Origin: Pseudoroseomonas ludipueritiae
GTDB lineage: Bacteria > Pseudomonadota > Alphaproteobacteria > Acetobacterales > Acetobacteraceae
Assembly (NCBI RefSeq): GCF_014490445.1
Contig: NZ_JACTUZ010000018.1
Span: 1 to 48,796, forward strand
Direction of reading: 5' to 3'
Length of the DNA stretch: 48,796 bases
Of the stretch, positions 16,904-46,480 are shown piece after piece. The translations under genes were made by a program, and so were the position numbers. The notes below the pieces were generated by a model. It did no database searches. It was not told the origin of the DNA and worked only from the letters and a program-made list of their open reading frames with translations. Within the stretch, counting starts at the first letter, position 1. Every line of letters starts with the position of its first letter.

Positions 16904-17799
16904 GCTGCGGCCTCCCCGGCGACGGCAACCAGCTCGAAAGCCGTCTCGTAAATCTGGTTGACGACATTCTCGATATCGCGGTCAGACAGACGCTCCAGGC
17001 TTTCGAGCCTTCCGGCGAGCTGACCGCGCGTTGCGCCCTCGACAAAATCATGAAGCTGCGCCTGGGCGCTTTCCACGGCAGCGATGTCATCAGGGAAGGT
17101 AATGCCCCGCCCGCCGAGGTCTGCCATCACCCGCCCTTCGATCGAACGCGAGATAAAGTCCAGGAAGACGTCCTGGAGCTGCTCCGGCGTAAGTGTATCG
17201 AAGCTGCCCAGCCCCGCTTCGGCAAGATCGCCGATCGTCTCCAGCATCGCCTGCCGCGCGATCGCGTCGTCGACCGCGCCGCCTGGTGGACAGATAAATT
17301 CCAGAATCGCTACGAAGACATCTGCCGCCGGCTGCGTTGCCAATCCGGCCAAGTTGAGTTGACGAAGCGTTTCGGTTGGTCCGAGACGTTGGAAGTCACG
17401 AACAACGCCCAACAATCCGCTGGCTGTGGCGCGGGATGAGCCCATGCGTCGCGCGGCCCGTCGGGCGCCGCCGGTGCTGCCGCGTACATAGCCCGACAGC
17501 GCACTTCCGAGCGCACTACGGCTGCCGGTCCTTGCGAAACGCGTGAAATTACCGCGAGCGCCACCAAGGCTACCGGTGCCCTTCGTATCCGGACGCGACG
17601 GCGTGCTCGGAACGCCCGGAATAGCAGGCGCTGCCGGCTGTCCCGGTTGCGGGAATGACGGTCCGCCGGGCGCGCCCGGTGCATTCGGACTCACCGGCGC
17701 TGTTGCCGGAGGTCGAGGCTGGGTCGGCGGCGTCGGGTCGTCCACGAAGGATGGAACGAGGCCGATTGAGGGTCCGCCGTAGCTTTTTGACGTGCCCAT
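16900..17799 (-). CDS. qatB: QatB of Qat defence system
   Basis: A 299-residue protein from ATG 17799, 4 bp after the qatA stop; the open frame continues upstream but only as an overlap of qatA. It begins MGTSKSYGGPSIGLVP, the short N-terminal signature seen in QatB proteins, followed by a Pro/Gly-rich low-complexity stretch (about residues 20-65) and then a helical domain with RRAARRMGSSRATASGLLGV. In related QueC-containing systems a small N-terminally flexible protein is the substrate of the QueC-like enzyme, so this exposed N-terminus may be a modification target; that is inference. Confidence 0.85.
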   Translation of the reverse strand: MGTSKSYGGPSIGLVPSFVDDPTPPTQPRPPATAPVSPNAPGAPGGPSFPQPGQPAAPAIPGVPSTPSRPDTKGTGSLGGARGNFTRFARTGSRSALGSALSGYVRGSTGGARRAARRMGSSRATASGLLGVVRDFQRLGPTETLRQLNLAGLATQPAADVFVAILEFICPPGGAVDDAIARQAMLETIGDLAEAGLGSFDTLTPEQLQDVFLDFISRSIEGRVMADLGGRGITFPDDIAAVESAQAQLHDFVEGATRGQLAGRLESLERLSDRDIENVVNQIYETAFELVAVAGEAAA

Positions 17800-17803
17800 C
17801 CGA

Positions 17804-19759: not shown

Positions 19760-19879
19760 AGTTCCCCCCTTCGCCTACATTACGCGGGCCACAGCCTCAG
19801 CCGTTTTTTCTTTTAATATACTTGATTAAGCCAACCAAATTCACCGACGCCTCCAATCCGCTGGTCTACACTGGCCCGC
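19760..19879 (-). promoter_or_regulatory. Probable qat promoter region
   Basis: This 120-bp gap between the helicase stop and qatA is AT-rich. On the minus strand TATATT near 19,817-19,822 could serve as -10, but no good -35 sits 16-18 bp upstream. A run of T at 19,804-19,816 on the plus strand lies in the leader. Only the position and base composition support a promoter. Confidence 0.35.
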
Positions 19880-21859: not shown

Positions 21860-21863
21860 TGCG

Positions 21864-23816: not shown

Positions 23817-23840
23817 CGCCGCCTCCCAGCCCCGTTTTTC

Positions 23841-24857
23841 TTATGCTGCCGCGCTGTTCGCTCGCGCGGTGATGTCTGCGCAGCGCTCCATGAGCGTCTC
23901 AAAAGGCTCGGCTTCCTCAAGGAGGAGCCCATCGTCGACCATCTGCGCGTAATCTTCTGCGAGAGCATAGGCGCCGTCGCCGGTTGGGACGAGCCGCAAG
24001 CCGCCGTTCACGGCTGCGGCGTAGTCAATCTGAGAGCGGTCTGCGGCTTTCTCGGCAAAGAACATCGTCTTATGACGGGCTACGGCGTTGGCCAGGTCAC
24101 GATCTGCGAAGGCAGCGGCCGCGAAGCCGGCTTCATCGAGACGCACAACGTCATGCCAGTGCCGCGCGAAACGATCACCACGGAGTCGTTCCTGCAGGCA
24201 GAAGACGTGGATCGCGGTCGCCTTCTCCCAGAAGGTCCGTTCGGCATGCATGACCTTTGGCCGAGCGGTTGGAAAGACCACGCCATCCACCAGCCCGGCA
24301 GCATCGCAGACGACATCGCGCAGGCTCGCTGGCTCGCCCGTCGAGCGCGCGCCGAATTCGAGCATGACGCTCGGCGACACATAGCCCGAACCCGCCGTTG
24401 TCGCCTCGTAGTCGATGAAGAGCTTCTCGCCATCGACTCGGATTGCCGCTGACAGTGGGCCGCCCGCCAGCGCTTCGGCGATGACCGACTTAACCGTCCC
24501 CGCCACCCAATCCGGCAGGCGCTCCCGCACGGCGCTCGTCCAGCGCTTTTCCTCGCTTCGGGTTTTCGGCAGCGCTTCACCATTGTCGCCGACAAGGTCG
24601 GGGGCGAGCGCGCGAATGTCGTAGGTCAAATCGACATCCTCGGAGAACCGCCGGATGACGCCATAGGCCTTCGACAGCGAAGTGCCGCCCTTGAAGACTA
24701 GATGTTCGCCGAGCGGCGAACCGTAGAGCGTCGCCAACGCCCACACCACCCACGCATCCTTCTCAAGCAGGTGCGCGGGTCGGCCCGAGCGGTCGGCGGC
24801 AACGCTCAATGCTTCAAGGCGATCCTCGGCCGGAAGGAGGAGGAAGGGGTCAGCCAT
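23841..24857 (-). CDS. abiEii: AbiEii-type nucleotidyltransferase toxin
   Basis: A 338-residue member of the AbiEii/AbiGii family (PF08843). The nucleotidyltransferase core is LVFKGGTSLSKAYG (about residues 54-67), with the GGTSLS pocket, followed by RRFSEDVDLTYD with the metal-binding DVD. AKVMHAERTFWEKATAIHVF-like sequence in the middle is the conserved family block (here RPKVMHAERTFWEKATAI). AbiEii toxins transfer nucleotides to RNA (tRNA in the MenT branch) and arrest growth on infection. It overlaps the antitoxin gene by 8 bases and leads directly into gajA. Confidence 0.9.
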   Translation of the reverse strand: MADPFLLLPAEDRLEALSVAADRSGRPAHLLEKDAWVVWALATLYGSPLGEHLVFKGGTSLSKAYGVIRRFSEDVDLTYDIRALAPDLVGDNGEALPKTRSEEKRWTSAVRERLPDWVAGTVKSVIAEALAGGPLSAAIRVDGEKLFIDYEATTAGSGYVSPSVMLEFGARSTGEPASLRDVVCDAAGLVDGVVFPTARPKVMHAERTFWEKATAIHVFCLQERLRGDRFARHWHDVVRLDEAGFAAAAFADRDLANAVARHKTMFFAEKAADRSQIDYAAAVNGGLRLVPTGDGAYALAEDYAQMVDDGLLLEEAEPFETLMERCADITARANSAAA

Positions 24858-29067: not shown

Positions 29068-29097
29068 CGATCCAGCCACGTGCGTATAAGGGCGGCC

Positions 29098-30513
29098 ATG
29101 GTCGACGACGATAAGCAGCGGCTGATCAAGCCGATCAGCCAGCGGCAGTTCGAGCTCTACGCACTGTCACTCGACCGCGGTCCTAACTTCGAGCCCGCAC
29201 ACATCTTCAGCGCCTATCAGGCCGGACGACGCAGCGTGAGCGGCTGCATTCTGTTTGATCCAGACCGAGGGACCTTCTCCAGCCTCGCCTTGCGCCGGCG
29301 CATCGATCATCGCTGGATCAAGGTCGATGAAAGCGGCCCCTATTCCACCCCCGAGGCCGCGTTCGACCGTCTCAGCATCGCGATGCGCGCCGGCGATCCG
29401 CCGGAACCCTTGCCGCCGGGCGCCAGGCGCCGCCCGCTCTTGCTGAAAACCGGGCCACGCGGGACATCCCCCGAATTCGATCTCCTGACAAAGACGATCA
29501 GCCATTGGCCGGCGCTCATGGCGATCGGCGAAAGTTATCTCGCCCTTCCCAATCCGGACGCCAATTTCGTCCCCGACTTTCAGACCAGCAACTTCGCCTC
29601 CCGGCTGTTCGAACTCTACCTGCTTGCCTGCTTTCGCGAGCAGGGCCTGAGCGTTCGGCAAGATCATGTCTCGCCCGACTTCCTGATCGAGAAGGAGGGC
29701 GATACGTGCTGGATCGAGGCGGTGACTGCGAACTCGGAGACGCCACGCTCCGGCGGGATCGGTGACTGGGTGCTTGCGCCGGAGGACCGCAACGAACGCC
29801 TGACGGGAGGTCCGGCCGAGCGCTTCGCCAAGACGCTGCGGGGCAAGCTCCAGCGAAACTACCATGAGCTGGACCATGTGAAGGGTCAGTCCTTCGCCCT
29901 CGCGCTGGCAGATTTCCACGAGTCCGGTTCAATGGTCTGGAGCCGCGAGGCGCTGCCCACCTACCTCTACGGGCTGCGCGCCGATATCGAAGGAGAAGGC
30001 GCGGGGCGCCGCGCGGTCGGGACGCCGATTAGCAACCTGACCGGCAAGCACGGCATCCCGGCGGGGCTCTTCCGCGATCCGGACTTCGCCCATCTGTCGG
30101 CCGTCATCTTCAGCAATGCGGCGACCCTCGCCAAGTTCAATCGGATGGGTTTCCTGGCCGGCTGGCGCCCGCCCGGTCTGACGATGATCCGGCGCGGCAT
30201 CCTTTTCGACCGAACCCCGGGAGCACTGGAGCCGATCGACTTCGAGCTGTCCGTCGCCAGCGACGAATACGAAGCGCTCTGGCCCTGGGGCGAAGCGTGG
30301 TGTCAGGAGCTAGAGGTGTTCCACAATCCGCTGGCCGCCCACCCCATCCCGTTCGATCTCATCCCGGGCGCGACCCATTGGTTCGAGCGCGACGGCGACA
30401 TCGAGTGCAGCACCATCTGGGCGAACTCGGTGCTGTCGTCGGTCACCCGTTTGCACATGGATGGTGAAGCCGGGACGACCAGCGATACGCCTAGCGAAAG
30501 CACGCCGTCATGA
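29098..30513 (+). CDS. PD-(D/E)XK-like protein B (PD...WIEAVT)
   Basis: A 471-residue protein from ATG 29098 (AAGGG upstream). The first 120 residues are a domain absent from its neighbour. The remainder mirrors protein A: Glu172 in RLFELYLLACF, Pro193-Asp194 in VSPDFLIEKEG and Glu207 in CWIEAVTAN, then FAHLSAVIFSN and HNPLAAHPIP near the end. It is thus a longer paralogue, probably with the same nuclease-like fold. It lies 30 bp after protein A and 43 bp before the peptidase gene in one operon. No named family is known to me. Confidence 0.65.
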   Translation: MVDDDKQRLIKPISQRQFELYALSLDRGPNFEPAHIFSAYQAGRRSVSGCILFDPDRGTFSSLALRRRIDHRWIKVDESGPYSTPEAAFDRLSIAMRAGDPPEPLPPGARRRPLLLKTGPRGTSPEFDLLTKTISHWPALMAIGESYLALPNPDANFVPDFQTSNFASRLFELYLLACFREQGLSVRQDHVSPDFLIEKEGDTCWIEAVTANSETPRSGGIGDWVLAPEDRNERLTGGPAERFAKTLRGKLQRNYHELDHVKGQSFALALADFHESGSMVWSREALPTYLYGLRADIEGEGAGRRAVGTPISNLTGKHGIPAGLFRDPDFAHLSAVIFSNAATLAKFNRMGFLAGWRPPGLTMIRRGILFDRTPGALEPIDFELSVASDEYEALWPWGEAWCQELEVFHNPLAAHPIPFDLIPGATHWFERDGDIECSTIWANSVLSSVTRLHMDGEAGTTSDTPSESTPS

Positions 30514-32008: not shown

Positions 32009-32050
32009 AAGCCGGAACGTCGCCGATCCTGACATCCTGATTTCCGGCTT
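32009..32050 (+). terminator. Hairpin after five-gene operon
   Basis: AAGCCGGAA at 32,009-32,017 and TTCCGGCTT at 32,042-32,050 form a perfect 9-bp stem directly after the stop codon, followed by CACGCTTTT. The 24-base loop is long for an intrinsic terminator, so this may instead be a processing or protection hairpin. Confidence 0.45.
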
Positions 32051-32123
32051 CACGCTTTTGGGGAAGGCCTTCTCCTGCGGTCGAGCCTTGCGTCTCGGCC
32101 GACCCCTTCTGCGGGGAGACCCC

Positions 32124-32141
32124 CAGGCTGTGCAGAAACTC
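32124..32141 (+). repeat. Left inverted repeat of IS1182 element
   Basis: CAGGCTGTGCAGAAACTC. It matches the reverse complement of 39,149-39,166 without mismatch. Beyond the 18 bp the inner sequences remain loosely similar (GAC, then TTCAGTG against TTCAATG). Confidence 0.8.
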
Positions 32142-32192
32142 GCAGACGATTCAGTGCGGGCGCGATGAGGCGAACTGAATCGAGCGGGGCTC

Positions 32193-33614
32193 TCAGCCTC
32201 GCGACATCAGCGCTCCGGTCCCGAAGGCGTTCGAAGCGCGGATGATGTTGAATGCCAGGACCGAGAGGGCAGCTTCGGCTTTCACCCGCCGCAAACCGCG
32301 GGTCAGGAAGCGGCCTCCGCCAGACATTCGCTTGATGGTGCCGAAGGGATGCTCGACCGTGCAGCGACGGATCACCATGAGATCGGGATTCTCGTGGACC
32401 CGACGCTCCATCCGATCGAGCGCACCCTGATCCACGAGCCTGTGGATCGTGCGTTGATATCCCGGCGTACACTGCGGTTTGATCTGGCAGGTCTGGCACG
32501 CGGGCGTTCTGTATCGGATCGCCCGATTTCGGGTATGTTTGCCCTTGGGATGCATGGTTTCACCAGCCGGGCAGCGGATCGTGTCGGTTTGTTCGTCATG
32601 GATGAACTGCACAGGGCGGAAGAATTCTGCGCTCATGGCGCCACGCTTGATCGGTGCCGCCACGCGAACACCATCTTGCTCGCAGCGCGCGACCTCCTGC
32701 GCATTCGAATAGCCTCCGTCCGCCAGCACTTCGAGCTGGTCGACGTCGAGCACTTGCTTTGCCGCAATCGCCATTGGATGCAGCAACTGGCTGTCGTTGG
32801 CTTCGTTGGCGACATCGTTGTGAATGATCAGGCCACTTTCGATATCGACGACACTCTGGAGATTATAGGCTGGAAACTTCGGCGCCCGGCCATATCCCAT
32901 TGGTCGTGAATCCGGTTCCCCGAAGACCACGACGTTTGTATCGTGCTCTGCAAGTTCGGCCTGCCGTTTCTCCAACCTCCGCTTTCGGCGCTCCAGCGAT
33001 GCGATGGCGCCGGCAAAAGCCGCGCGATTGACTGTCTGATCGCGCACGTCCGCCGGGTGTTGATCCGCTATGTTGAGACGGTCGAGATAGTAGGCGATTT
33101 CCGTTTCAGTATGAGCGATGTCGCGCGCCAGGCGATCTGCTCCAGCGATGTTCTTCGCGCTGGCAACCGCCCGCATCTTGGTCCCGTCCAGTGCCACCTT
33201 GCCGGGAGTAACAAGGCCGTTCTCGCGACAGAAGCTGATGAACGCGGCGCCTGTGCGAATGATCGCTTCGGGATTATCGTGCCGGAACGCTGCGATGGTC
33301 CGATAGTCCGGGGTCATGCGCCGCATCAGCCAGATGGCCTCCAGGTCGCGCTGGCAGGCTCGCTCCAACTGGCGCGAGGAGCGCAACTGGTTCAGGTAAC
33401 CCCAGATATACAGTCGCAGCATATCGCCGGGGTGATAACCGGGTCGCCCTGTTGCGGCCGAGACAGTGCGCTCGAAGCCGAGCGCCGTGAGATCGAGGGT
33501 TTCGACGAAGCCATCAACGACGCGGACCAGAGATTCCTGCGGAACGTAGTCATCGACGCAGGCAGGTAAAAGAAGCGGCTGGCTTCGATCATTTCCCTCA
33601 ATAAAGCGTCCCAT
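32193..33614 (-). CDS. IS1182 family transposase
   Basis: A full-length 473-residue DDE transposase from ATG 33614. The N-terminus (GNDRSQPLLLPACVDDYV, then SLVRVVDGFVETLDL) is the typical IS1182/transposase-InsH-like start. Catalytic acidic residues are likely Asp in KVALDGTKMRA, Asp in VLADGGYSNA and Glu in CTVEHPFGTIKRM. A cysteine cluster, ACQTCQIKPQC, is the zinc-binding knuckle of this family. No frameshift or stop is present, so the enzyme may be active. Its 3' end lies 51 bp inside the left inverted repeat. Confidence 0.92.
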   Translation of the reverse strand: MGRFIEGNDRSQPLLLPACVDDYVPQESLVRVVDGFVETLDLTALGFERTVSAATGRPGYHPGDMLRLYIWGYLNQLRSSRQLERACQRDLEAIWLMRRMTPDYRTIAAFRHDNPEAIIRTGAAFISFCRENGLVTPGKVALDGTKMRAVASAKNIAGADRLARDIAHTETEIAYYLDRLNIADQHPADVRDQTVNRAAFAGAIASLERRKRRLEKRQAELAEHDTNVVVFGEPDSRPMGYGRAPKFPAYNLQSVVDIESGLIIHNDVANEANDSQLLHPMAIAAKQVLDVDQLEVLADGGYSNAQEVARCEQDGVRVAAPIKRGAMSAEFFRPVQFIHDEQTDTIRCPAGETMHPKGKHTRNRAIRYRTPACQTCQIKPQCTPGYQRTIHRLVDQGALDRMERRVHENPDLMVIRRCTVEHPFGTIKRMSGGGRFLTRGLRRVKAEAALSVLAFNIIRASNAFGTGALMSRG

Positions 33615-33814
33615 TTTGCCCCCGCGTCGCAAGTAATCAAGTGTAGCATCGGCAGCCGAATAATCCCAGTAAATGCTTGGCAATACGAACAATATCTACT
33701 GTGGCGCCATCAGAACATGTTGCTCGCACCAGACTGGTGATAGACAATGAAGCTTCGGGGAACGCGCGCGCTGCCGCACGCTCGGGATGCCGACCATGAT
33801 GAGGTTCTGGCAAG
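33615..33814. other. Gene-free segment between transposase and permease
   Basis: Two hundred bases with no gene. An ordinary IS1182 would end here, but the terminal-repeat sequence is absent. It probably holds the transposase promoter (reading left) and perhaps that of the permease. Confidence 0.4.
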
Positions 33815-34561
33815 GTGGAATTGGATGGACTCTGGCTCGCGGTGGCCTTCTTCCTCATCGCACTAATCTATGCGTCGGTCGGCCAGGCTGGGGCATCTGG
33901 CTACATCGCGATCATGGCGCTGGTCGGCTTTGCGCCGTTGGCCATGAAGACGACCGCGCTCGCCCTCAATCTGCTGGTCGCAGCAATCGGGACAGCCATG
34001 TTCCTGAAGGCGGGAAGGTTGTCGTGGCGAAGTGTCTGGCCTTTTGCGATCCTGGGCTTCCCGTTCTCTCTGCTCGGAGGATCTGTTCAGCTACCGGCGG
34101 ATATCTATTATCCGGTCGTCGGGGCGGTCCTCGTCCTGTCGGCCGTCCAGATGGCGCGGACGGCCCTTCGTAGATCTGGATCATCTGCGGACCTGCCGAC
34201 CGATCCGCCCTTCATCCCGGCGCTGGCCACGGGTGCGATCATCGGCTTCATATCCGGCACGACCGGGACCGGAGGCGGAGTATTCCTCGCACCGGTGATC
34301 CTCGCGATGAACTGGGGGACAGCGCGCCAGACTGCCGCGACAACCGCCGTCTACAATCTGATGAATTCGGCTGCTGCACTGCTTGGAGCCTATGCCTGGT
34401 GGGATCAGATCCCTAGTGCGCTACCCGGGTGGCTGATCGCCGTCGCTGTTGGCGGCTCGCTCGGGGCCTTCATCGGCAGCCGTTACCTCCCCGAACTATG
34501 GCTGCGCATCATTCTGGCGGCAATCCTTCTCGCCTCGGGTCTGAGGCTGCTGTTTGGGTGA
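33815..34561 (+). CDS. TSUP (TauE/SafE) family permease
   Basis: A 248-residue membrane protein with about eight hydrophobic segments in two similar halves. The family repeats are visible as ASVGQAGASGYIAIMALVG near the start and GFISGTTGTGGGVFLAPVIL in the second half. TSUP proteins export or import sulfite, sulfonates or related anions. Its place in front of an arsenic operon suggests an anion linked to oxyanion stress, but the substrate is unknown. Start is GTG 33815. Confidence 0.83.
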   Translation: MELDGLWLAVAFFLIALIYASVGQAGASGYIAIMALVGFAPLAMKTTALALNLLVAAIGTAMFLKAGRLSWRSVWPFAILGFPFSLLGGSVQLPADIYYPVVGAVLVLSAVQMARTALRRSGSSADLPTDPPFIPALATGAIIGFISGTTGTGGGVFLAPVILAMNWGTARQTAATTAVYNLMNSAAALLGAYAWWDQIPSALPGWLIAVAVGGSLGAFIGSRYLPELWLRIILAAILLASGLRLLFG

Positions 34562-34643
34562 CGGCCAGCTTTCCTATCACAAGCGAGTTTCAGCGGTCTC
34601 CCGACGAGGCGGAAACTATGTGCCGTCCCGGTCTAGACTCCAG

Positions 34644-34673
34644 TCCATATGTCGATTAGTCTCGACATATGGA
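34644..34673 (+). promoter_or_regulatory. ArsR operator spanning the arsR start codon
   Basis: TCCATATGTCGA (34,644-34,655) and TCGACATATGGA (34,662-34,673) form a perfect 12-bp inverted repeat with 6-bp spacer. The arsR ATG (34,669) lies inside the right arm, and there is no ribosome binding site, so the message may be leaderless. A weak promoter (TAGACT 34,634, 17 bp, TAGTCT 34,657) would place the start of transcription about at the ATG. Confidence 0.7.
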
Positions 34674-35040
34674 ATCAGAAAACGCCATCCTCGCTTTCGC
34701 CGCGCTCGCGCAACCGACCCGCCTCGACGTGTTCCGCCTGCTGATGGAGCACGAGCCGGACGGATTGCCCGCGGGCGAAGTCGCCCGCCGGTTGGATGTC
34801 CCGCACAACACCATGTCCACGCATCTGGCGACGCTGACGCGCGCCGGTCTGATTGATGCTGAGCGGCATAGCCGCTCGATCATCTATCGGGCGCGGCTCG
34901 ACGCTGTGCGGGAGCTCGCGGGCTTTCTCGTCAAGGATTGCTGCGGTGGCCACCCGGAAATCTGCGCGCCCCTGATCGCCGATTTTTCCCCTTGCTGCTC
35001 ACCGCAAACCCTCGCCGCCAAGGAGGCCACCCATGACTGA
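34669..35040 (+). CDS. arsR: ArsR family arsenic-responsive repressor
   Basis: A 123-residue winged-helix repressor of the ArsR/SmtB family. LAQPTRLDVFRLLMEHEP then GEVARRLDVPHNTMSTHLATLT is the HTH (about 14-60). The arsenite ligands are likely in the C-terminal cysteine cluster VKDCCGGHPEIC with a further CC near the end, the type found in proteobacterial ArsR proteins with C-terminal cysteine sites rather than in the DNA-binding helix. It binds the palindrome overlapping its own start. It overlaps arsC by 8 bases. Confidence 0.92.
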   Translation: MESENAILAFAALAQPTRLDVFRLLMEHEPDGLPAGEVARRLDVPHNTMSTHLATLTRAGLIDAERHSRSIIYRARLDAVRELAGFLVKDCCGGHPEICAPLIADFSPCCSPQTLAAKEATHD

Positions 35041-35560
35041 CCGCATCTACAATGTTCTGTTCCTTTGCACCGGCAATGCCGCGCGCTCGATCCTCGCCGA
35101 GAGCATTCTGAAGAAGGACGGCGATGGTCGCTTTCGCTCCTTCTCTGCCGGGTCGCAGCCGAAGGGAGCGGTCAATCCCTTTGCGCTGAAGGTGTTGCGG
35201 AGCTTCGACTACCCCGCCGAGGGCTTCCGCTCGAAAGGTTGGGAGGAGTTTGCCGGAGCCGACGCGCCTGTCATGGATTTCGTCTTTACCGTCTGCGACA
35301 GTGCCGCCGGTGAAGCCTGCCCGGTCTGGCCCGGCCAGCCCATGACCGCCCATTGGGGGATCGAAGACCCTGCCGCCGTCGATGGGCCGGACATCCAGAA
35401 GGAAGCCGCCTTCGTCGCCGCTTTCCGCTATATGAAGAACCGCATCTCGGCCTTTACGTCCCTACCAGTCGCCAGTCTCGACAAGGCGTCGCTCCGCACG
35501 AAGCTGACTGAGATCGGCCAGTCCGAAGGTGCGTCGTCTCCACGCAACAGCGCGGCGTGA
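35033..35560 (+). CDS. arsC: Arsenate reductase, LMW-phosphatase type
   Basis: A 175-residue low-molecular-weight phosphatase-like arsenate reductase. The P-loop is LFLCTGNAARSILAE with the catalytic Cys12 and Arg18, and the acid motif is WGIEDPAAVDG. C-terminal residues (about 160-175) are disordered. It reduces arsenate to arsenite, using thioredoxin or mycothiol-type partners in related branches. It overlaps arsR at its start and leads directly to a second, unrelated arsenate reductase. Confidence 0.9.
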   Translation: MTDRIYNVLFLCTGNAARSILAESILKKDGDGRFRSFSAGSQPKGAVNPFALKVLRSFDYPAEGFRSKGWEEFAGADAPVMDFVFTVCDSAAGEACPVWPGQPMTAHWGIEDPAAVDGPDIQKEAAFVAAFRYMKNRISAFTSLPVASLDKASLRTKLTEIGQSEGASSPRNSAA

Positions 35561-35568
35561 GGCAGGCT

Positions 35569-35994
35569 ATGGACGTCATCATCTACCACAACCCGGATTG
35601 CGGAACCTCGCGCAACACCCTGGCGATGATCCGCAATGCAGGCGTCGAGCCACATGTCATCGAATATCTCAAGACACCGCCGTCTCGGGACATGCTCACC
35701 CAGCTCATCGCGCGCATGGGTATCCCCGTCCGCGCCCTGCTGCGCGAGAAGGGCATGCCCTATGCAGAGCTTGGCCTGGGCAACCCGGCACTGAGCGACG
35801 AGGAGTTGCTTGATGCGATGATGGCGCATCCCATCCTGATCAACCGGCCCATCGTCGTCAGCCCGAAGGGCGTTCGGCTTTGCCGACCGTCCGAGGACGT
35901 CCTCGACCTGCTGCCGCCGCAGCACGGCGCGTTCGTCAAGGAAGACGGCGAGCGGGTGATCGACGAACACGGCCGGCGCGTGCCCACGGCCTGA
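35569..35994 (+). CDS. arsC: Arsenate reductase, glutaredoxin-dependent type
   Basis: A 141-residue ArsC of the E. coli plasmid R773 type from ATG 35569; a GTG at 35557 overlapping the previous stop is the alternative. The active site is YHNPDCGTSRNTL with the catalytic cysteine at about residue 11, and arsenate-binding arginines appear in the family blocks ALLREKG and NRPIVV. It uses glutathione and glutaredoxin. Having both ArsC folds in one operon is redundant at the level of reaction but draws on different reductants. Confidence 0.92.
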   Translation: MDVIIYHNPDCGTSRNTLAMIRNAGVEPHVIEYLKTPPSRDMLTQLIARMGIPVRALLREKGMPYAELGLGNPALSDEELLDAMMAHPILINRPIVVSPKGVRLCRPSEDVLDLLPPQHGAFVKEDGERVIDEHGRRVPTA

Positions 35995-36003
35995 AGGAAT
36001 TCC

Positions 36004-37059
36004 ATGTCTACTTTTGAACGCTACCTCACCCTCTGGGTCGCATTGTGCATTGTCGTCGGCATCGCGCTCGGCCATTTTCTGCCGGGCGAATTTCATGCCA
36101 TCGGCGCGATGGAAATTGCCAAGGTCAACCTGCCGGTAGCCGTGCTGATCTGGCTGATGGTCATCCCCATGCTGCTCAAGATCGACTTCGCCGCATTGGG
36201 CGAGGTCGGCCGCCACTGGCGCGGCATCGGCGTGACGCTGTTCATCAACTGGGCGGTAAAGCCGTTCTCGATGGCTCTATTGGGCTGGCTGTTCATCGGC
36301 TGGCTGTTCCGGCCCTATCTGCCGGCAGATCAGATCGACAGCTATATTGCCGGTCTCATCATCCTCGCGGCCGCGCCTTGCACGGCCATGGTGTTCGTCT
36401 GGTCGAACCTGACCAAGGGCGAGCCACATTTTACGTTGAGCCAGGTCGCGCTCAATGACGCCATCATGGTCGTTGCCTTTGCGCCCATCGTTGGCCTGTT
36501 GCTGGGCCTGTCGGCCATCACCGTGCCATGGGGCACGCTGGTCCTGTCCGTGGTACTCTACATCGTCATTCCCGTCATCATCGCGCAGATCGTCCGTCGT
36601 CGACTTCTGGCGAGCGGCGGGCAGGTCGCACTCGATCGGCTGCTTTCAAAGCTTGGACCGGCATCACTTGTGGCGCTGCTCGCGACGCTGGTGCTGTTGT
36701 TCGGCTTTCAGGGCGAGCAGATCATCGCGCAGCCGGCAATCATCGGCCTGCTTGCTGTGCCTATCCTGATTCAGGTCTATTTCAACTCTGGCCTTGCCTA
36801 TCTGCTCAACCGGATGGCCGGCGAACAGCATTGCGTGGCGGGTCCCTCGGCGCTGATCGGCGCGTCGAATTTCTTCGAACTGGCGGTCGCCGCCGCCATC
36901 AGCCTGTTCGGCTTTCACTCGGGCGCGGCGCTCGCCACGGTGGTCGGCGTGCTGATCGAGGTCCCGGTTATGCTCTCGGTCGTCTGGATCGTGAACCGCT
37001 CCAAAGGCTGGTATGAACGCGGCGGCAAAGTCTCCAGACTGGCGGAGGCGCAGCGCTGA
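36004..37059 (+). CDS. acr3: Acr3 arsenite efflux permease
   Basis: A 351-residue membrane protein of the ACR3 family with ten hydrophobic segments. The family's conserved cysteine is in [18 protein letters not shown] in the fourth segment region, and [19 protein letters not shown] follows. It expels arsenite (and often antimonite) using proton-motive force. It stands 9 bp after arsC and shares a base with the arsH start (TGATG). Confidence 0.94.
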
Positions 37060-37775
37060 TGCCGGACGAGCTTCCCAACCTTGATGCCGGTTGCGCTGAT
37101 GTTCCCAGTTTGGACCGTCTGCGCGCAGCGACGCCGTCTACCCATCCGCCGCGTATCCTGCTGCTTTACGGCTCGCTCCGCGAGCGATCCTACAGTCGCT
37201 TCCTGACATTCGAAGCCGAGCGTCTGCTCAAGCATTTCGGCGCGGAAACTCGTATCTTCGATCCGTCCGGCCTGCCGCTGCCGGACGGGGCTGAGGTCAA
37301 TCATCCCAAGGTGCAGGAATTACGTGAACTTTCGCGCTGGTCGGAAGGTCAGGTCTGGACCAGCCCGGAGCGTCACGGTGCGATGAGCGCGGTGATGAAG
37401 GCGCAGATCGACTGGATTCCCCTTTCGGACGGCGCGGTAAGGCCAACGCAGGGTCGGACACTCGCCGTCATGCAGGTCTCCGGCGGCTCGCAGAGCTTCA
37501 ACGCCGTCAACCAGATGCGTGTGCTCGGCCGCTGGATGCGGATGGTGACGATCCCCAACCAGTCCTCCGTCGCCAAAGCCTTTCAGGAGTTCGACGAGGC
37601 GGGCCGGATGAAACCGTCTTCCTATTATGATCGAGTGGTCGACGTGATGGAGGAACTGATGAAGTTCACACTGCTGACGCGCGACGTCTCTACCTACCTC
37701 ACCCACCGCTATTCCGAACGCAAGGAGAGCGGCGAGGCTCTGATGCGGCGGGTCAACCTGACGACTGCAACCTGA
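37059..37775 (+). CDS. arsH: ArsH NADPH-dependent FMN flavoprotein
   Basis: A 238-residue ArsH. The flavodoxin-like FMN site is [16 protein letters not shown] (about residues 30-45), and [19 protein letters not shown] and [13 protein letters not shown] are family blocks. ArsH oxidises trivalent organoarsenicals and reduces other electron acceptors; it gives resistance to methylarsenite. It is the last gene of the ars operon before chrA. Confidence 0.94.
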
Positions 37776-37841
37776 GAATCTATCTCGCGCCGATCGCACG
37801 TCATCGTTTGCAAGAATGCCCCAACCAACGAGGTCTCCTGA

Positions 37842-39041
37842 ATGGATCATAGCCCGCAACAGTCGCAAGGAAGCGTCTCCGAGGTATTCCGCGCATTCCT
37901 GAAGCTGGGGCTCACCTCCTTCGGCGGACCGATCGCGCATCTGGGCTATTTCCGGGACGAACTGGTGACGCGGCGAAAATGGCTGAGCGAAAGCGCATAT
38001 GCCGATCTGGTGGCGCTATGCCAGTTCCTGCCCGGTCCGGCCTCCAGCCAGGTCGGCTTTGCTCTTGGTCTGACGCGGGCGGGATGGCTCGGCGCGTTTG
38101 CAGCTTTCCTCGCCTTCACCCTGCCATCGGCCATGATCCTTCTCGCGCTTGCCATGACGGCTACGCGGCTGGAAGGTCCACTTGCGCTTGGCGTCCTGCA
38201 TGGTCTCAAGATCGTCGCCGTCGCCATCGTGGCGCAAGCCGTGTGGGGCATGGCAAAAAACCTCTGCCCCGATAAGGAGCGCGCCACGATCGCGGTCGTG
38301 GCCGTGCTTCTGCTTGCCTGGGCGCCGGGAGTGATCGGGATGATGGCGGCCATACTGCTGGGCGCACTCGCCGGGCTGGCTCTTGGCAAAGGACAGGTCA
38401 CGATTGGCGAGCATCTGCCTGTGCCGGTTTCACGCAAAGCCGGGCTGACGGCCTTTGCGCTGTTCGCCGTCTTGCTGATTGGTCTCCCGATCCTTGCGGG
38501 GCAGGCTCAGGGGTGGGCGCTTGCGGACAGCTTCTATCGTGCTGGCTCGCTGGTCTTTGGTGGCGGACATGTCGTGTTGCCACTGTTACAGGCCGAAACG
38601 GTCGCGCCGGGATGGGTGTCCGATGATGCCTTCCTCGCGGGCTATGGCGTAGCACAGGCGGTCCCCGGACCGCTCTTCACCTTTGCCGCCTGGCTCGGAG
38701 CGGTCATGGGACCGGCGCCGAACGGCGTGGCCGGCGCGATGATCGCTCTTGTCGCAGTTTTCCTGCCGGGCTTCCTGATCCTGATCGGGGCGCTGCCCTT
38801 CTGGGATCAGTTGCGCCGCACGACATGGGCGCAGTCGGCCATGCAGGGCGCCAATGCCGCCGTCGTCGGCATTCTCGGCGCTGCGCTTTATTCGCCTGTC
38901 TTCACCAGCGCGATCGGCGGCATGCCGGATTTCGCACTGGCCTTGATTTGTTTCGTGGCGCTGATGGCCTGGAAAGCTCCGCCATGGGTCGTCGTGTTGC
39001 TGGCGGCCGTGGGCGGAGCTGCGCTTAGCCTGATGATGTAA
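37842..39041 (+). CDS. chrA: ChrA chromate efflux transporter
   Basis: A 399-residue two-domain CHR-family protein. The first half carries GLTSFGGPIAHLGYFRDELV and LCQFLPGPASSQVGFALG; the second repeats the pattern as SLVFGGGHVVLPLLQAE and GVAQAVPGPLFTFAAWLG, the hallmark of the duplicated long-chain ChrA. It expels chromate, entering cells through sulfate pathways. It starts 66 bp after arsH with GAGGTCTCC upstream, so it may be part of the same message. Confidence 0.94.
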   Translation: MDHSPQQSQGSVSEVFRAFLKLGLTSFGGPIAHLGYFRDELVTRRKWLSESAYADLVALCQFLPGPASSQVGFALGLTRAGWLGAFAAFLAFTLPSAMILLALAMTATRLEGPLALGVLHGLKIVAVAIVAQAVWGMAKNLCPDKERATIAVVAVLLLAWAPGVIGMMAAILLGALAGLALGKGQVTIGEHLPVPVSRKAGLTAFALFAVLLIGLPILAGQAQGWALADSFYRAGSLVFGGGHVVLPLLQAETVAPGWVSDDAFLAGYGVAQAVPGPLFTFAAWLGAVMGPAPNGVAGAMIALVAVFLPGFLILIGALPFWDQLRRTTWAQSAMQGANAAVVGILGAALYSPVFTSAIGGMPDFALALICFVALMAWKAPPWVVVLLAAVGGAALSLMM

Positions 39042-39148
39042 AACGTTTCGACAACCTTCGGGCGTTCACTCTGTCAGACCGAGCACATTGATCGAAGCAA
39101 GCTGATGCACGGCTTGCAGGATATATCCAAGCCCATTGAAGTCCGGAT

Positions 39149-39166
39149 GAGTTTCTGCACAGCCTG
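39149..39166 (-). repeat. Right inverted repeat of IS1182 element
   Basis: GAGTTTCTGCACAGCCTG, exact reverse complement of 32,124-32,141. It lies 107 bp after chrA and is followed by CCCC, the same four bases that precede the left repeat. Confidence 0.8.
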
Positions 39167-39182
39167 CCCCGCAACGCCCCCG

Positions 39183-39263
39183 AGAGTGAGAGTGCGGACG
39201 GGTTTTCCGTGACGGGTTCAGGGTTGGAGGAGAGGCCTCCGGCGCCCGTCGTGGAGAATAGCC
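39183..39263 (+). promoter_or_regulatory. Conserved leader element, copy 1 (before DUF932 gene)
   Basis: An 81-base leader starting AGAGTGAGAG and ending at the ATG. It shares ordered blocks with the leader of the parB-like gene (40,551-40,632): AGAGTGAGAG, GCGG, CGTGACG, GTT, GAGAGGC, CGGC, CGTCG and GGAG, at nearly the same spacing. A hairpin GGAGG-AGAGG-CCTCC lies in the middle. The GGAG block is probably the ribosome binding site. Could be a structured RNA or a conserved promoter region. Confidence 0.6.
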
Positions 39264-40460
39264 ATGACGCATGTGGAGATTCTGGACGCCGCTCGCGACC
39301 GCGCTGGCGGATACAAGGTCGATGTGAGCCGCGGCGAGCGGATCGGCCGCGTATCGTCGGAATGGTTCTCGCGGCCGGCCGACGAGCGCTACCTATCCCT
39401 GTCGGACCTCTATGCCGCTGTCCGTAGCCGGACTGAGCGGAGCCGTACCCAAACCGTCGCGAGCGCAGCGATCCGGGTCGCGGCGAGCCACGATAATGCC
39501 GAACGCCTAGCACTGATGCTGCCCGGCTCCGACACGCCGATCGCGCCCACGCATTGGAGCTTCGGCCAACTCGCAAGTCTGGTCGGCGCGCCGGCGGCCT
39601 ATCTGCGCCAGCTTCCCGGGCCGCTGGCCGGCATCAACCTGCAATACGGGCTGACCTCCCATCGCGCCGAGCAGGTAAAGACGCTCGAGATCGAAAACGG
39701 ACGCGTCGAGCTGCGCGCCGTTACCGGGCCCGACTATGGCCGCATTTTCGACCACGAGCTGGTCGCGGCCGTGCAGCGCATCGCCGGCAACGGCACGGGC
39801 GACACCCGCTGGAAGGTGCCGGGCGTGCTAGACTGGTCGACGGGGGTCTACAATCCGCGCGTCGACATCACCCAGGACACCACCACCCTTTATGCCTCGG
39901 ACCGGGATGTCTTCCTCTTCCTGGTCGACGATCTGAATCCGATCGAGGCCGGCCGGCTGCCCGATGGCTCGCCAGACCTCTATTTCCGCGGCTTCTACTG
40001 CTGGAATTCCGAGGTGGGCGCGAAGACGCTTGGCATGGCGAGCTTCTATCTCCGTGCCGTTTGCCAGAACCGGAATTTGTGGGGGGTCGAGGATTTCGAG
40101 GAGATCACCATCCGCCACTCGAAATATGCCGCCTCGCGCTTCGCGCATGAGGCGGCGCCAGCGCTGACCCGCTTTGCCAACTCCTCGCCACTCCCCTTCG
40201 TCAACGGCATCAAGGCGGCGCGCGAGAAGATCGTGGCGCGTAGCGACGAGGATCGTAGCGACTTCCTGCGCAAGCGCGGGTTCTCGAAGACCGAGACGGC
40301 AAAGATCATTGAGACAGTGCTGGCCGAAGAAGGCCGTAAGCCCCAAAGCGTGTTCGATTTCGTGCAGGGCATCACTGCGGTCGCCCGCGGCAAGACCCAG
40401 CAGGACGCGCGGCTCGATCTCGAGGCGCGCGCGAAGAAGCTTCTCGATCGGGCGGCCTGA
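39264..40460 (+). CDS. DUF932 domain protein
   Basis: A 398-residue member of DUF932 (PF06067), a family found on plasmids, conjugative elements and phages and related to the LGT domain group. Recognisable blocks are LYFRGFYCWNSEVGAKTLG and FYLRAVCQNRNLWGVEDFEEITIRHSK-type sequence (positions about 235-290). Biochemical role unknown; such genes travel with partition and replication genes. Preceded by a conserved leader and followed by a hairpin terminator. Confidence 0.83.
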   Translation: MTHVEILDAARDRAGGYKVDVSRGERIGRVSSEWFSRPADERYLSLSDLYAAVRSRTERSRTQTVASAAIRVAASHDNAERLALMLPGSDTPIAPTHWSFGQLASLVGAPAAYLRQLPGPLAGINLQYGLTSHRAEQVKTLEIENGRVELRAVTGPDYGRIFDHELVAAVQRIAGNGTGDTRWKVPGVLDWSTGVYNPRVDITQDTTTLYASDRDVFLFLVDDLNPIEAGRLPDGSPDLYFRGFYCWNSEVGAKTLGMASFYLRAVCQNRNLWGVEDFEEITIRHSKYAASRFAHEAAPALTRFANSSPLPFVNGIKAAREKIVARSDEDRSDFLRKRGFSKTETAKIIETVLAEEGRKPQSVFDFVQGITAVARGKTQQDARLDLEARAKKLLDRAA

Positions 40461-40550: not shown

Positions 40551-40632
40551 AGAGTGAGAGGGCGGCGCTGCGCTTCGTGACGAGTTGATGCCGAGAGAGA
40601 GGCTTTCGGCTCTCGTCGCGGAGTACATCCCG
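40551..40632 (+). promoter_or_regulatory. Conserved leader element, copy 2 (before parB-like gene)
   Basis: The 82 bases from AGAGTGAGAG to the parB ATG repeat the blocks and order of 39,183-39,263. The central hairpin is kept with different bases (GAGAG...CTCTC here, GGAGG...CCTCC in copy 1). Upstream, CCCGC--CGC is also shared, so the homologous unit may begin near 40,530. Confidence 0.6.
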
Positions 40633-42741
40633 ATGGCTACCACTGTTCAGAAGATCACCCTCTCGCCCTCGCGCGACATTCCCTTCAACAAGCTCTTGCT
40701 CTCCCAGTCGAACGTCCGGCGGGTGAAGGCCGGCGTCTCGATCGAGGAGCTGGCCGACGACATCGCCCGCCGCGGCCTGTTGCAGGGCCTCAGCGTGCGC
40801 GCGGTCGTCGATCAGGCCGGCGTCGAGACCGGCATGTTCGAGATTCCGGCTGGTGGCCGGCGCTACCGGGCGCTGGAGCTACTCGTGAAGCAGAAGCGTC
40901 TCGCCAAGACCGCGCCGGTGCCGTGCATCGTCCGCGACAGCGGCATCGCCGAGGAGGACTCGCTCGCCGAGAATGTCCAGCGCGCGCCGTTGCACCCTCT
41001 CGACCAGTTCCGGGCCTTCCTCGCGCTACGCGAGAAGGGGCAGTCCGAAGAAGAGATCGCTGCCGCGTTCTTCGTCTCAGTCAACGTGGTGAAGCAGCGC
41101 CTGAAGCTGGCGTCGGTCTCGCCGGCGCTGCTCGACGTCTATGCCGAGGACGGCATGACGCTCGACCAGCTCATGGCCTTCACCGTCTCCGGCGACCACG
41201 AGCGCCAAGAGCAGGTCTTCGAGCGCCTGAAGGCTTCCTACGACAAGCAGCCCTACGTCATCCGCCGGATGCTGACTGAGGGCGCGGTCCGCGCCTCCGA
41301 CAAGCGGGCGCAGTTCATCGGCGTGGATGCCTACGTCGCGGCCGGTGGCACGGTCCTGCGCGACCTGTTCCAAGGCGACGATGGCGGCTGGCTGCAGGAT
41401 GTTCCGCTCGTGGACCAGATGACCGCCGACAAGCTGAAGGCGGACGCCGAGGTGGTCGCCGCCGAAGGCTGGAAGTGGATCGAAGTCGCGCCGGACTTCG
41501 CCTACGGCCATGCCTTCGGTATGCGCCAGCTTCGTGGCGAGACCGTCGCGCTGACCACCGAGGAGGAAGCAAGCCGCAACGCGCTTCAGTCCGAGTTGGA
41601 CCGCCTGTCGGACGAATATCAGGACGCCGACGAACTGCCCGACGAGGTCGACGAGCGCCTGTCGGAGCTAGAGACGCTGATCGAGGGCTTCGGCGACCGG
41701 CCCGTCGTGTTCGACGCCACCGAGATCGCGCGTGCCGGCGCCTTCATCAGCATCGGCGCTGATGGCCAGCTTCGCATCGAGCGGGGCTATGTCCGACCGG
41801 AAGACGAATTGGCGGCCCAGCCTACGTCCGAGCCGGACGCGGACGGCGACGATGAACGCGCGATGGCCGCCGGCTATGAGGGCGACGAGGCCGTCATGAC
41901 GGCGGAGCCAGACGCCGAGCCGGAGGAGGACGAGGGTCTCTCCCCCATGTCCGACCGCCTGATGACCGAGCTGACCTCGCATCGGACGCTTGGCCTCCGC
42001 AACGCGCTCGGCGAGCGACCGGACGTCGCCTTCGTCGCGGCCCTGCACGTTCTGACGCTGAAGACCTTCTACCACTACGGCTCGGATAGCTGCCTCGAGC
42101 TGGACCTGAAGAGCGTCAGCTTCGGGACGCAGGCGCCGGGGCTCAACGACAGCGTGTCGGCCGAGGCGATCCGCGTGCGGCACGAAAGCTGGTCGAAGGC
42201 GCTTCCCAAGGAATCGGCCGATCTCTGGGATGCGCTGCAGGAATGGGACGGCGACAGTCAAGCGGGCCTATTCGCCCACATCGTCAGCCTTTCGGTCAAC
42301 GCGGTGTACGAGCCCTGGAACCGGCGACCCCGTGCGGCCGCCCATGCCGACCGGCTGGCGCAGGCGGTCGACCTCGACATGGCGGCAGCGGGGTGGAAGC
42401 CGACCGTGGACAACTTCCTCAGCCGGGTGACGAAGGCCCGCATCCTTCAGGCGGTTTCCCAGGCGAAGGGCCAACGCGCCGCCGATCGGATCGAGCATCT
42501 GAAGAAGGGCGACATGGCAGCGGAAGCACAGACGCTGCTCGACGATACCGGCTGGTTGCCTGAACCGCTTCGCACCGTCGATCGGAGCGCGTCGAATGTC
42601 GAACCCACCGTGATCGGCGAATCTATTGAGGCGGTCGCACAATCGACGGCAATCGAGGGCGAAACGGCCATGGCCGAAGACGAGCCCTTCGCGGAAGATG
42701 AGATGGCCGACGACGCTCCCCACGCGGTCGCGGCCGAATAA
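40633..42741 (+). CDS. parB: Large ParB/RepB-like partition protein
   Basis: A 702-residue protein from ATG 40633. The N-terminal ParB/Sulfiredoxin-like domain is clear: LLLSQSNVRRVKAGVSIEEL, GLLQGLSVRAVV, AGGRRYRALELL (the CTPase loop region) and EEDSLAENVQRAPLHPLDQF, followed by an HTH (AAFFVSVNVVKQRLKL). The rest, about 450 residues, has an acidic, low-complexity middle (EPDADGDDERAM) and a C-terminal domain of unknown role. This long form is typical of integrative and conjugative elements of alphaproteobacteria, where it may regulate or segregate the element. No ParA gene is adjacent. Confidence 0.85.
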   Translation: MATTVQKITLSPSRDIPFNKLLLSQSNVRRVKAGVSIEELADDIARRGLLQGLSVRAVVDQAGVETGMFEIPAGGRRYRALELLVKQKRLAKTAPVPCIVRDSGIAEEDSLAENVQRAPLHPLDQFRAFLALREKGQSEEEIAAAFFVSVNVVKQRLKLASVSPALLDVYAEDGMTLDQLMAFTVSGDHERQEQVFERLKASYDKQPYVIRRMLTEGAVRASDKRAQFIGVDAYVAAGGTVLRDLFQGDDGGWLQDVPLVDQMTADKLKADAEVVAAEGWKWIEVAPDFAYGHAFGMRQLRGETVALTTEEEASRNALQSELDRLSDEYQDADELPDEVDERLSELETLIEGFGDRPVVFDATEIARAGAFISIGADGQLRIERGYVRPEDELAAQPTSEPDADGDDERAMAAGYEGDEAVMTAEPDAEPEEDEGLSPMSDRLMTELTSHRTLGLRNALGERPDVAFVAALHVLTLKTFYHYGSDSCLELDLKSVSFGTQAPGLNDSVSAEAIRVRHESWSKALPKESADLWDALQEWDGDSQAGLFAHIVSLSVNAVYEPWNRRPRAAAHADRLAQAVDLDMAAAGWKPTVDNFLSRVTKARILQAVSQAKGQRAADRIEHLKKGDMAAEAQTLLDDTGWLPEPLRTVDRSASNVEPTVIGESIEAVAQSTAIEGETAMAEDEPFAEDEMADDAPHAVAAE

Positions 42742-45066: not shown

Positions 45067-45193
45067 CCACCCACGTTGCGTTATCGCTCTCCCACTCGCA
45101 GGGACGTCGATATAAAACCGTACACTAAGTCTGAACGGTAAACGGGGAGCCCGATAGCAGTGGCTTCCAGACAAAGAAGGTGTGAATAGAGGC

Positions 45194-46480
45194 ATGGGCA
45201 CCTCAATCGAACTAAAAGTAAGCGGCGTATCTTTAGATTACGCAAAAAATAACAGCGGCAATGATTACGGCCATCTCTTCCAAGAGTCCGATCTCGCCCG
45301 CCGACCGAGCGATGGCATCGACTACGACTATTACCGCGACCATCCGGAGCAGATAGACGATCTCGCTGAAAGTGAGCTTGCCTTCGTTCGCCCATTGGCT
45401 CGCGTCATCCCGAGACTTCGCGTTCTCGGTGACACGCTGGATGGCGCCCGGGCGGAGTACGAGGCCGTTGTCGCCGACGCGCTCTCGTCGCTCTCCACGG
45501 ACGAGGAACCGGCACAGTTCCTCGATTTCGACGAGTTTTGCGCGCTCGCGAGCCTGTTCCCACTGGCCAGCCTCGCCGACGAATATATCGACTACGACAC
45601 CGAGGAGCGGGCCAGTGTCGCCCAAGGCCGCTTCGCGCCGCATGCCGCGCTGTTTGCCCGTATTCCTTGGACCGAAAACTCCGATTCCTACTGGTCCGAA
45701 GCCAGCTTTCTCTCAGCCAAGCTTTGCATCCTAAGCCCATCCTCGATGCTGCAGATCTTTTTTCTCAATCCCGACAATGCGGACGCCGAAGTGATCTGGC
45801 AGTTCGGCAATATCGTCCATGCGGGTTGGGTTGATCGTAGCTTCTTTGCCGCCGGAGTACAGCGAAACCAATCGATTCTGGTCGCGACCGAAGGAGCGTC
45901 GGACGCCCGCATTCTGCGCCGCGCGCTCGATCTCCTGCGCCCCGACGTTGCCGACTTCTTCCGGTTTATCAACGGCGAAGAACGGCATCATTTCTGGGGC
46001 ACCGGGAACCTTGTTCGATTTGCTGAAGGTCTCGTGCGGATCGACATTCAGAACCAGGTACTGTTCCTGCTCGACAATGATGCAGAGGGAATAGAAGCAT
46101 ACGGCAAGCTTCAGGAATTGAAGATGCCCGGCAATCTGCGCTCGATGGTCTTGCCGGACAGCGAGGACCTACGCCGCTTCCCGGCGCTCGGCCCCGAGGG
46201 TCTCAATGAATGCGACATCAACGGGCGAGCTGCCGCCATCGAATGTTACCTCGATCTCAATCTGCCCAGTTACCCGCCGGCACGCGTAATTTGGAGCAAT
46301 TACAAGCGCGACATCGACGCCTGGCACGGCGCGCTCGAGCACAAGGAATCCTACGACCGGCACTTCATGAAGCAGGACGCTGACTCGTTGACGTCGGGAT
46401 CATACGACACATCCAAGCTGACCCAAGTGCTCGACGCCTTGATCGCCGAGGTTTCGCACTTTGGCGGACGCGCTGACTGA
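45194..46480 (+). CDS. HEPN/Toprim-associated defence-type protein
   Basis: A 428-residue protein from ATG 45194 (GTG 45182 is the alternative). It opens with MGTSIELKVSGVSLDYAKNN and HLFQESD, the N-terminal signature of the HEPN/Toprim-associated domain (PF18871). The C-terminal half has Toprim features: SILVATEGASDARIL (Glu233) and VLFLLDNDAEG (Asp294, Asp296). Proteins of this kind are thought to be nuclease-type defence effectors, but I know of no characterised member. Base composition is lower in GC than the genes around it, and it lies between two copies of the DUF2493 3' end, both signs of insertion. Confidence 0.78.
   Translation: MGTSIELKVSGVSLDYAKNNSGNDYGHLFQESDLARRPSDGIDYDYYRDHPEQIDDLAESELAFVRPLARVIPRLRVLGDTLDGARAEYEAVVADALSSLSTDEEPAQFLDFDEFCALASLFPLASLADEYIDYDTEERASVAQGRFAPHAALFARIPWTENSDSYWSEASFLSAKLCILSPSSMLQIFFLNPDNADAEVIWQFGNIVHAGWVDRSFFAAGVQRNQSILVATEGASDARILRRALDLLRPDVADFFRFINGEERHHFWGTGNLVRFAEGLVRIDIQNQVLFLLDNDAEGIEAYGKLQELKMPGNLRSMVLPDSEDLRRFPALGPEGLNECDINGRAAAIECYLDLNLPSYPPARVIWSNYKRDIDAWHGALEHKESYDRHFMKQDADSLTSGSYDTSKLTQVLDALIAEVSHFGGRAD

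Follow-up and report, generated by a model that had tools for sequence, protein, structure and literature searches.

The window analysed here, a stretch of 48,796 nt from Pseudoroseomonas ludipueritiae (contig NZ_JACTUZ010000018.1), contains a 7,043-bp arsenic/chromate unit (32124–39166) with a transposase of the IS1182 family of insertion sequences (IS), bounded by terminal inverted repeats (IRs) and inserted into a structured target. Judged from sequence comparisons, the unit very probably belongs to a site-specific, cargo-carrying lineage of IS1182-family transposons that uses one specific target. The features of the unit and its edges are as follows.

32041–32123, + strand: upstream part of the interrupted target, a multi-stem element ending in GCGGGGAGACCCC (from sequence; the match to model R1, 32041–32138, runs slightly into the unit)
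32120–32123, + strand: left CCCC of the target-site duplication (from sequence; same duplication in 35/35 elements)
32124–32141, + strand: left terminal IR, transposase-side end (18/18 with 39149–39166)
32193–33692, – strand: IS1182-family transposase, 499 aa, TTG start (NCBIfam NF033551 above cut-off; Pfam DDE_Tnp_1_6, DUF772, DDE_Tnp_1)
33815–34561, + strand: TauE/SafE-type exporter (Pfam PF01925 only; present in 7/14 arsenic elements by clustering)
34669–35040, + strand: ArsR/SmtB-type regulator (NF033788 above cut-off)
35033–35560, + strand: LMWP-type (thioredoxin-type-like) ArsC, arsenate reductase-like (passes Pfam LMWPc only; below the NCBIfam ArsC cut-offs, including TIGR02691)
35557–35994, + strand: glutaredoxin-type arsenate reductase ArsC (TIGR00014 above cut-off)
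36004–37059, + strand: ACR3 arsenite efflux transporter (TIGR00832 above cut-off)
37059–37775, + strand: ArsH (TIGR02690 above cut-off)
37842–39041, + strand: ChrA-type chromate efflux transporter (TIGR00937 and Pfam PF02417 above cut-off)
39149–39166, + strand: right terminal IR, cargo-side end (18/18 with the left end)
39167–39180, + strand: right CCCC (39167–39170) plus the remaining target core CCCCGCAACGCCCC (from sequence; intact elsewhere)

A first-pass annotation had described this locus as an IS1182 element with perfect 18-bp IRs 7.0 kb apart, one intact transposase, seven cargo genes and CCCC at both edges, and each of these points was borne out. The IRs are complementary at 18/18 positions, with 7,007 nt between them; by a rough estimate that assumes equal bases, the chance of one perfect 18-nt inverted pair in 7.7 kb is ~4e-4. 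Between them lie a single transposase open reading frame (ORF) and the seven cargo genes, with the family matches listed above. Against the NCBIfam IS1182 equivalog NF033551 (cut-off, 270), the transposase reaches 343.6 bits; its region is single-copy in the window's own genome, and the IR, CAGGCTGTGCAGAAACTC, is of the IS1182-family type. Compact members of this family measure ~1.3–1.95 kb and consist of a transposase only. At 7,043 bp with cargo, the window unit exceeds this size, so it has an IS1182-family transposase but is no plain IS. The arrangement is that of a transporter IS (tIS), in which a single IR pair encloses one transposase together with passenger genes that have no role in transposition. 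A composite transposon has two IS copies around its cargo, and here the cargo-side end carries only an 18-bp IR.

The annotation had also predicted that removal of the unit restores a hairpin. Rejoining the window flanks with a single CCCC gives GCGGGG-AGA-CCCCGC, and the joined sequence aligns through the junction with intact copies in a genome of the same family (L080 in G025; 90.9% over 1,564 bp, 1 gap opening) and in one of the same genus (L084 in G006; 88.0% over 1,566 bp). In both alignments only ~63 bp lie on the upstream side, with the remainder on the gene side.

To survey the lineage, we made one contig scan with the window transposase as query. This yielded 45 loci, all in Alphaproteobacteria; both ends could be placed in 34, giving 35 bounded elements with the window. 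Two of these (L059 and L061) represent one insertion in two strains, hence 34 distinct insertions. For L062, which has two candidate left IRs with 4 mismatches each, we chose the one matching its near-twin L063. The elements range from 2,580 to 9,593 bp, and all have ORFs besides the transposase; none is bare. The transposase stop codon lies 40–57 bp from its IR in 33/35, the exceptions being L051, with an IS66-type set in between, and L067, in which the called ORF ends early. A second end adjoining the transposase, as the usual IS1182 right end would appear, was seen in 0/35 bounded elements.

All 35 elements interrupt the same sequence, GCGGGG-loop-CCCC^GCAACGCCCC, the first arm of which varies in some copies. 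The duplicated bases are in every case the CCCC beside GCAACG (the 3' arm of TGCGGGG-loop-CCCCGCA) and never the GGGG arm, and the two orientations of the element at the target are represented 20 and 15 times. With 35 elements at one target and one CCCC duplication, a site-specific lineage is therefore favoured. The annotation noted that IS1182 members often insert at palindromes. Here, the choice is narrower than any palindrome: a single conserved element is used, and it is always the same arm that is duplicated. For an empty-site test, joined flanks were aligned against 35 fetched target-bearing loci, with at least 30 bp required on one side of the junction and at least 60 bp on the other. 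Uninterrupted sites, whose existence the annotation implied, were matched across the junction by 28/35 elements (best, 94.0% over 2,745 bp), several with only 61–67 bp on one side; L034, L050, L051, L055, L058, L067 and L071 gave no such alignment. Neither of the two observations that the annotation named as refuting it was made in this sample.

The target itself was also searched for. A strict pattern, GCGGGGAGACCCCGC (9 sites in 8/193 genomes), proved too narrow, as the loop varies, and was replaced by a gapped pattern and by model R1. The gapped pattern occurs at 17 places in 16/385 class genomes, compared to 0 for a reversed control, while model R1 has hits in 25/193 related genomes, including interrupted copies in G000, G017, G039 and G009. 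A 33-nt target query matched 27 plasmid records, 25 of them over at least 80% of its length. One 25-bp, 96% match to the target query lies outside Alphaproteobacteria, on a plasmid of Granulicella tundricola (NC_015058.1, 129392–129416).

Evidence for movement comes from near-identical copies elsewhere. The annotation regarded the whole as one mobile unit that should recur at other loci, and a copy of the 7,043 bp with 10 mismatches indeed occupies a different locus in Endobacter (G017), which belongs to the same family but is not the same genus. Outside the unit, blastn matches between the two loci amount to just 47 bp and 46 bp at the two junctions, of which 18 bp each are the IR. A 90%-identical unit without the TauE gene lies upstream of a DUF932-type gene in G039, in the orientation opposite to that in the window. 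Because the 7,043 bp recur with 10 mismatches in another genus, and relatives occupy the same target in both orientations, the analysis supports the view that the window unit behaves as a single mobile unit. Beside the Endobacter copy (L032, 46–3037) we observed, by eye, a 591-aa ORF resembling a serine recombinase and a small pair resembling a GNAT toxin–antitoxin.

The transposase lineage carries 11 kinds of cargo, of which the window unit represents one. Cargo was assigned by Pfam scans of representatives and by clustering for the others, and the grouping into kinds is our own. Arsenic cargo is the largest group, with 14 elements (the window, L034–L044, L066 and L068), and includes a chromate transporter in 13/14 (absent from L036). 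Mercury cargo (MerR-type, HMA, MerA, MerB) is found in 5 elements, and MerA of L050 scores above its NCBIfam cut-off; NorB, DUF1971 and Rrf2 occur together in 4; and GroEL in 3, accompanied by GroES, Hsp20 and MarC in L067 and by a transglutaminase-type protein in L059/L061. Cation-diffusion efflux cargo and MauE/glutaredoxin plus DUF305 cargo account for 2 elements each. Single elements carry a P-type metal ATPase (presumably lead-type, by analogy) with signal peptidase II and MerR; a glycosyltransferase with UbiA and a phage-type integrase; ArsR with AHSA1; an alpha/beta hydrolase with AraC; and an alpha/beta hydrolase with a histidine kinase. Additional transposase genes are present inside L051 and L066.

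More distant relatives are organized differently. All six plasmid relatives at ~40% identity are bare IS of 1,573–1,669 bp with related, CAGACCGTGTAAAAACG-like IRs; one is ISPse1, 1,661 bp here with the repeats included. A quick maximum-likelihood tree separates the 42 rows of the lineage (35 bounded elements, 6 unbounded ones and 1 fragment) from 11 relatives with a Shimodaira–Hasegawa-like approximate likelihood-ratio (SH-aLRT) value of 100. No bare lineage member was found in the contig scan or in a 385-genome sample of the class, which, besides the window's genome, gave six relatives at 39–41% identity. A search of plasmid DNA gave 260 records that match the region, none over 80% of it. 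Among plasmid proteins, 3/2,531 records have 60–80% identity, Phenylobacterium zucineum being the only one of the three among the 60 rows listed; there, next to an IS21 pair, the transposase is missing its start, and its end adjoins a GGGG-CCCC hairpin that resembles the target. In the phage search, the transposase end was unmatched.

Several observations weigh against a uniform, target-bound and always loaded lineage. Eleven of the 45 scanned loci are unbounded and were excluded from the 35. Four of these have the transposase-side end at the target (L049, L057, L060, L070) and two the other end (L069, L072); L077 is degenerate, L045 is cut at the contig end, and in L078 no end could be placed. 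In L065 and L074, the transposase-side end abuts other sequences, away from the target, reflecting either decay or insertion elsewhere. For L049 (L140 in G009, of the window's genus), with one end at the target, the second end was not found within ~13.8 kb, consistent with either a decayed or a very long element. Left ends were found by IR alone in 33/35 elements, and for L056 and L075 the target half-site helped to place them. The scan favours relatives above ~66% identity, and hence bare members at 42%–66% may exist unseen; the ends of bare relatives were sought just 900 bp upstream and 400 bp downstream. The tree program issued a long-branch warning at the lineage split. Finally, no transposition was observed.

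The target usually lies just ahead of a particular type of gene. A context scan, limited to the three best lines for each locus, placed the start of an ArdC- or DUF932-type match 98–131 bp past the junction in 24/35 insertions. A further 7 have a relative of ArdC, ParB or toprim no more than 2.4 kb away, 3 have a flank of just 128–244 bp, and for L050 there was no match in the 4 kb behind the target. Among nine annotated plasmid contexts, one record is unannotated at this point and some have other genes behind the target. On two plasmids, trb conjugation genes are accompanied by a relaxase-type gene ~24–25 kb from the target (DUF3363, which we take to be part of a relaxase). In the window, the interval and genes behind the target are as follows.

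39207–39254, + strand: second leader hairpin in the target-to-gene interval, by similarity (folded in L105, L084 and L036; same sequence pattern in the window)
39264–40460, + strand: first gene after the target, DUF932-type by its relatives (no Pfam or NCBIfam match at 1e-3; plasmid relatives behind the same target are annotated DUF932)
40585–42741, + strand: ParB-N protein of the same operon-like run (Pfam ParB_N; relatives near the target)

Two further stems lie upstream of the target hairpin. To look for covariation, we used 28 intact copies (30 found, 2 near-duplicates dropped). The hairpin core formed part of the search pattern, and its invariance in this set is no evidence. The middle stem covaries: 84.7% of cells are paired, compared to 66.9% after shuffling, and 36 cells are doubly changed, compared to 14.8, with 0/500 shuffles as high for either measure. 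The score of this stem is 0.480, versus at most 0.169 when it is slid. Other measures do not exceed the shuffles, namely pairs with a double change (6 versus 4.8; 105/500 as high) and further pair types (11 versus 13.0). Fold z-scores for DNA of the gene strand are –2.6, –2.6 and –2.8 in three leaders (for the third, the gene-side half only), compared to –0.8 and –2.1 for the other strand. Rfam gave weak matches only, far below gathering scores and none convincing for the target. A second long hairpin between the target and the start codon is seen in most ArdC/DUF932 leaders (e.g. L105, 5995–6125) and is absent from some intact targets.

How might such elements move? A DDE transposase would pair the two IRs and move the whole unit, making a 4-nt staggered cut at CCCC after recognition of the hairpin together with GCAACGCCCC. 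Recognition of the hairpin alone would leave both arms open to insertion, so the enzyme probably has further requirements. The target may be a tolerated berth on conjugative DNA, from which metal, nitric oxide and heat-stress genes could be carried between orders of Alphaproteobacteria. The transposase may have acquired cargo by using an IR-like sequence past an adjacent gene as its end, as described for TnSha1 (PMC4923244).

One alternative is that there is no unit at all, the second IR being a chance match or leftover, or the whole a composite transposon minus one IS, beside unrelated resistance genes. A single transposase between the ends is what a decayed composite might show. But a nearly identical 7,043-bp unit, complete with its two ends and the duplication, occurs in another genus; 14 elements are of the arsenic type, and other cargo has the same ends and target; and no related copy among the 35 has a second IS or another boundary. 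We give this idea almost no weight. It is also very improbable that homologous recombination among similar plasmid backbones explains how the elements spread, transposition having taken place only long ago. Conservation of the target and leader, and the relatedness of several backbones, would fit such a scenario. However, L044 (Paracoccus, arsenic/chromate) and L059 (Aureimonas, chaperonin) are different elements in opposite orientations at the same nucleotide, in backbones that match at 835/835 bases towards the gene and at 1,248/1,249 on the opposite side. Moreover, a mercury unit of 7,112 bp recurs in five loci with 3–8 differences from L050, and some of these contexts are unlike each other outside the target.

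Two further alternatives concern what is recognized. The transposase could seek any stem-loop by its structure, with this hairpin merely common on the plasmids concerned. Hairpin targets have been published for the family (PMC4923244, PMC5678879), and the stem is retained in most targets here. TnSha1, in which IS1272 is joined by the passenger gene fabI, enclosed by an IR and an alternative IR, resembles the present elements as an IS1182-family unit with a passenger gene, a hairpin target and both orientations at one site (PMC4923244). Yet TnSha1 is reported to have no primary sequence preference, and both it and IS1272 to remove the hairpin partly or wholly without making a duplication (PMC4923244, PMC5678879). 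In contrast, targeting of this type was seen in none of our 35 elements, which use one sequence and one arm with a 4-bp duplication; were structure alone enough, both arms would be available, as would many other hairpins. This explanation is therefore improbable, if less so than the preceding two. The alternative that we take most seriously, while still thinking it unlikely, couples transposition to conjugation. The transposase would recognize the target in a folded single-stranded or cruciform shape, the target would be a priming signal or a single-strand promoter of the Frpo/ssi kind that is active early after plasmid entry, and transposition would occur mainly during transfer. The covarying middle helix and the usual position of the target just before ArdC/DUF932 genes are consistent with this. 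DDE transposases usually join to duplex DNA, and the fold z-scores are modest. Both element orientations are present, and the relaxase-type gene in the two plasmids is ~24–25 kb away from the target. Published work lends some plausibility: ArdC of R388 is required in the recipient (PMC7213743), folded single-strand promoters can drive leading-region genes (PMC11541004), and IS1272 was proposed to act on stem-loops (PMC5678879). Unlikely, too, is the wider reading that the lineage is specialized on a folded leader of conjugative DNA, with exchangeable resistance modules passing from plasmid to plasmid via a shared berth.

The preferred reading, a site-specific and cargo-carrying lineage, can be set beside published systems. 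Like ISPse1 (1,653 bp with a 4-bp repeat; PMC3281130), the elements have an IS1182-family transposase, related IRs and a 4-bp duplication; unlike ISPse1, which is bare, they span 2.6–9.6 kb, carry cargo and use one fixed target. They share with tIS the presence of passenger genes unrelated to transposition (PMC3129680, PMC7986276), but tIS are members of several families, whereas here every bounded element of one lineage is loaded, with 11 cargo kinds. The TnCO-1 megatransposon also has cargo mobilized by one IS1182-like transposase; it differs as an 85.8-kb circle from one adapted isolate, with the expected IRs absent at one junction and no shared target described in the excerpt (PMC12056078). 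IS1202-family elements at dif sites likewise have a fixed target on plasmids, but belong to another family, measure 1.5 kb and lie in one orientation next to dif, with no cargo mentioned in the start of the abstract (PMC10132070). PMC7371123 concerns Tn3-family transposons. In a literature search that covered mostly listings and the starts of abstracts, and few subscription papers and no bioRxiv preprints, we did not find this lineage, its fixed target and arm or its lineage-wide cargo described. Four end and target strings were absent from the 5.39 million papers searched, a scope that leaves out figures, most subscription papers and bioRxiv preprints. Thus, cargo-bearing IS1182 elements and hairpin targeting are already known, while the fixed target, the fixed arm and the lineage-wide cargo seem new.

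IS that carry cargo are regarded as exceptional. The IS1182 lineage described here resembles a separate transposon family, in which each bounded element is loaded and which is directed at a single conserved element found on plasmids and related islands. Its hosts belong to six orders of Alphaproteobacteria and at least 14 families, and the lineage would explain the spread of arsenic, chromate, mercury, metal-efflux, nitric oxide and heat-stress genes across them with no need for integrons or the machinery of Tn3/Tn7. More members could be found simply by looking for an IR adjacent to GCAACGCCCC. Lacking a convincing match in Rfam, and located ahead of anti-restriction-type genes, the covarying target is a candidate single-strand signal.

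Other genes surround the target in the window. Downstream, in the same gene run, a protein with a HEPN/Toprim N-terminal domain (45182–46480) has no PADLOC match. Upstream, at 15530–24857 and 29080–30513, lies a defence island with PADLOC model matches to GajA and GajB (Gabija), QatA, QatC, AbiEii and a PD-T7-1-like protein. Relatives of GajA are found upstream of the target in L109 and L110 too.

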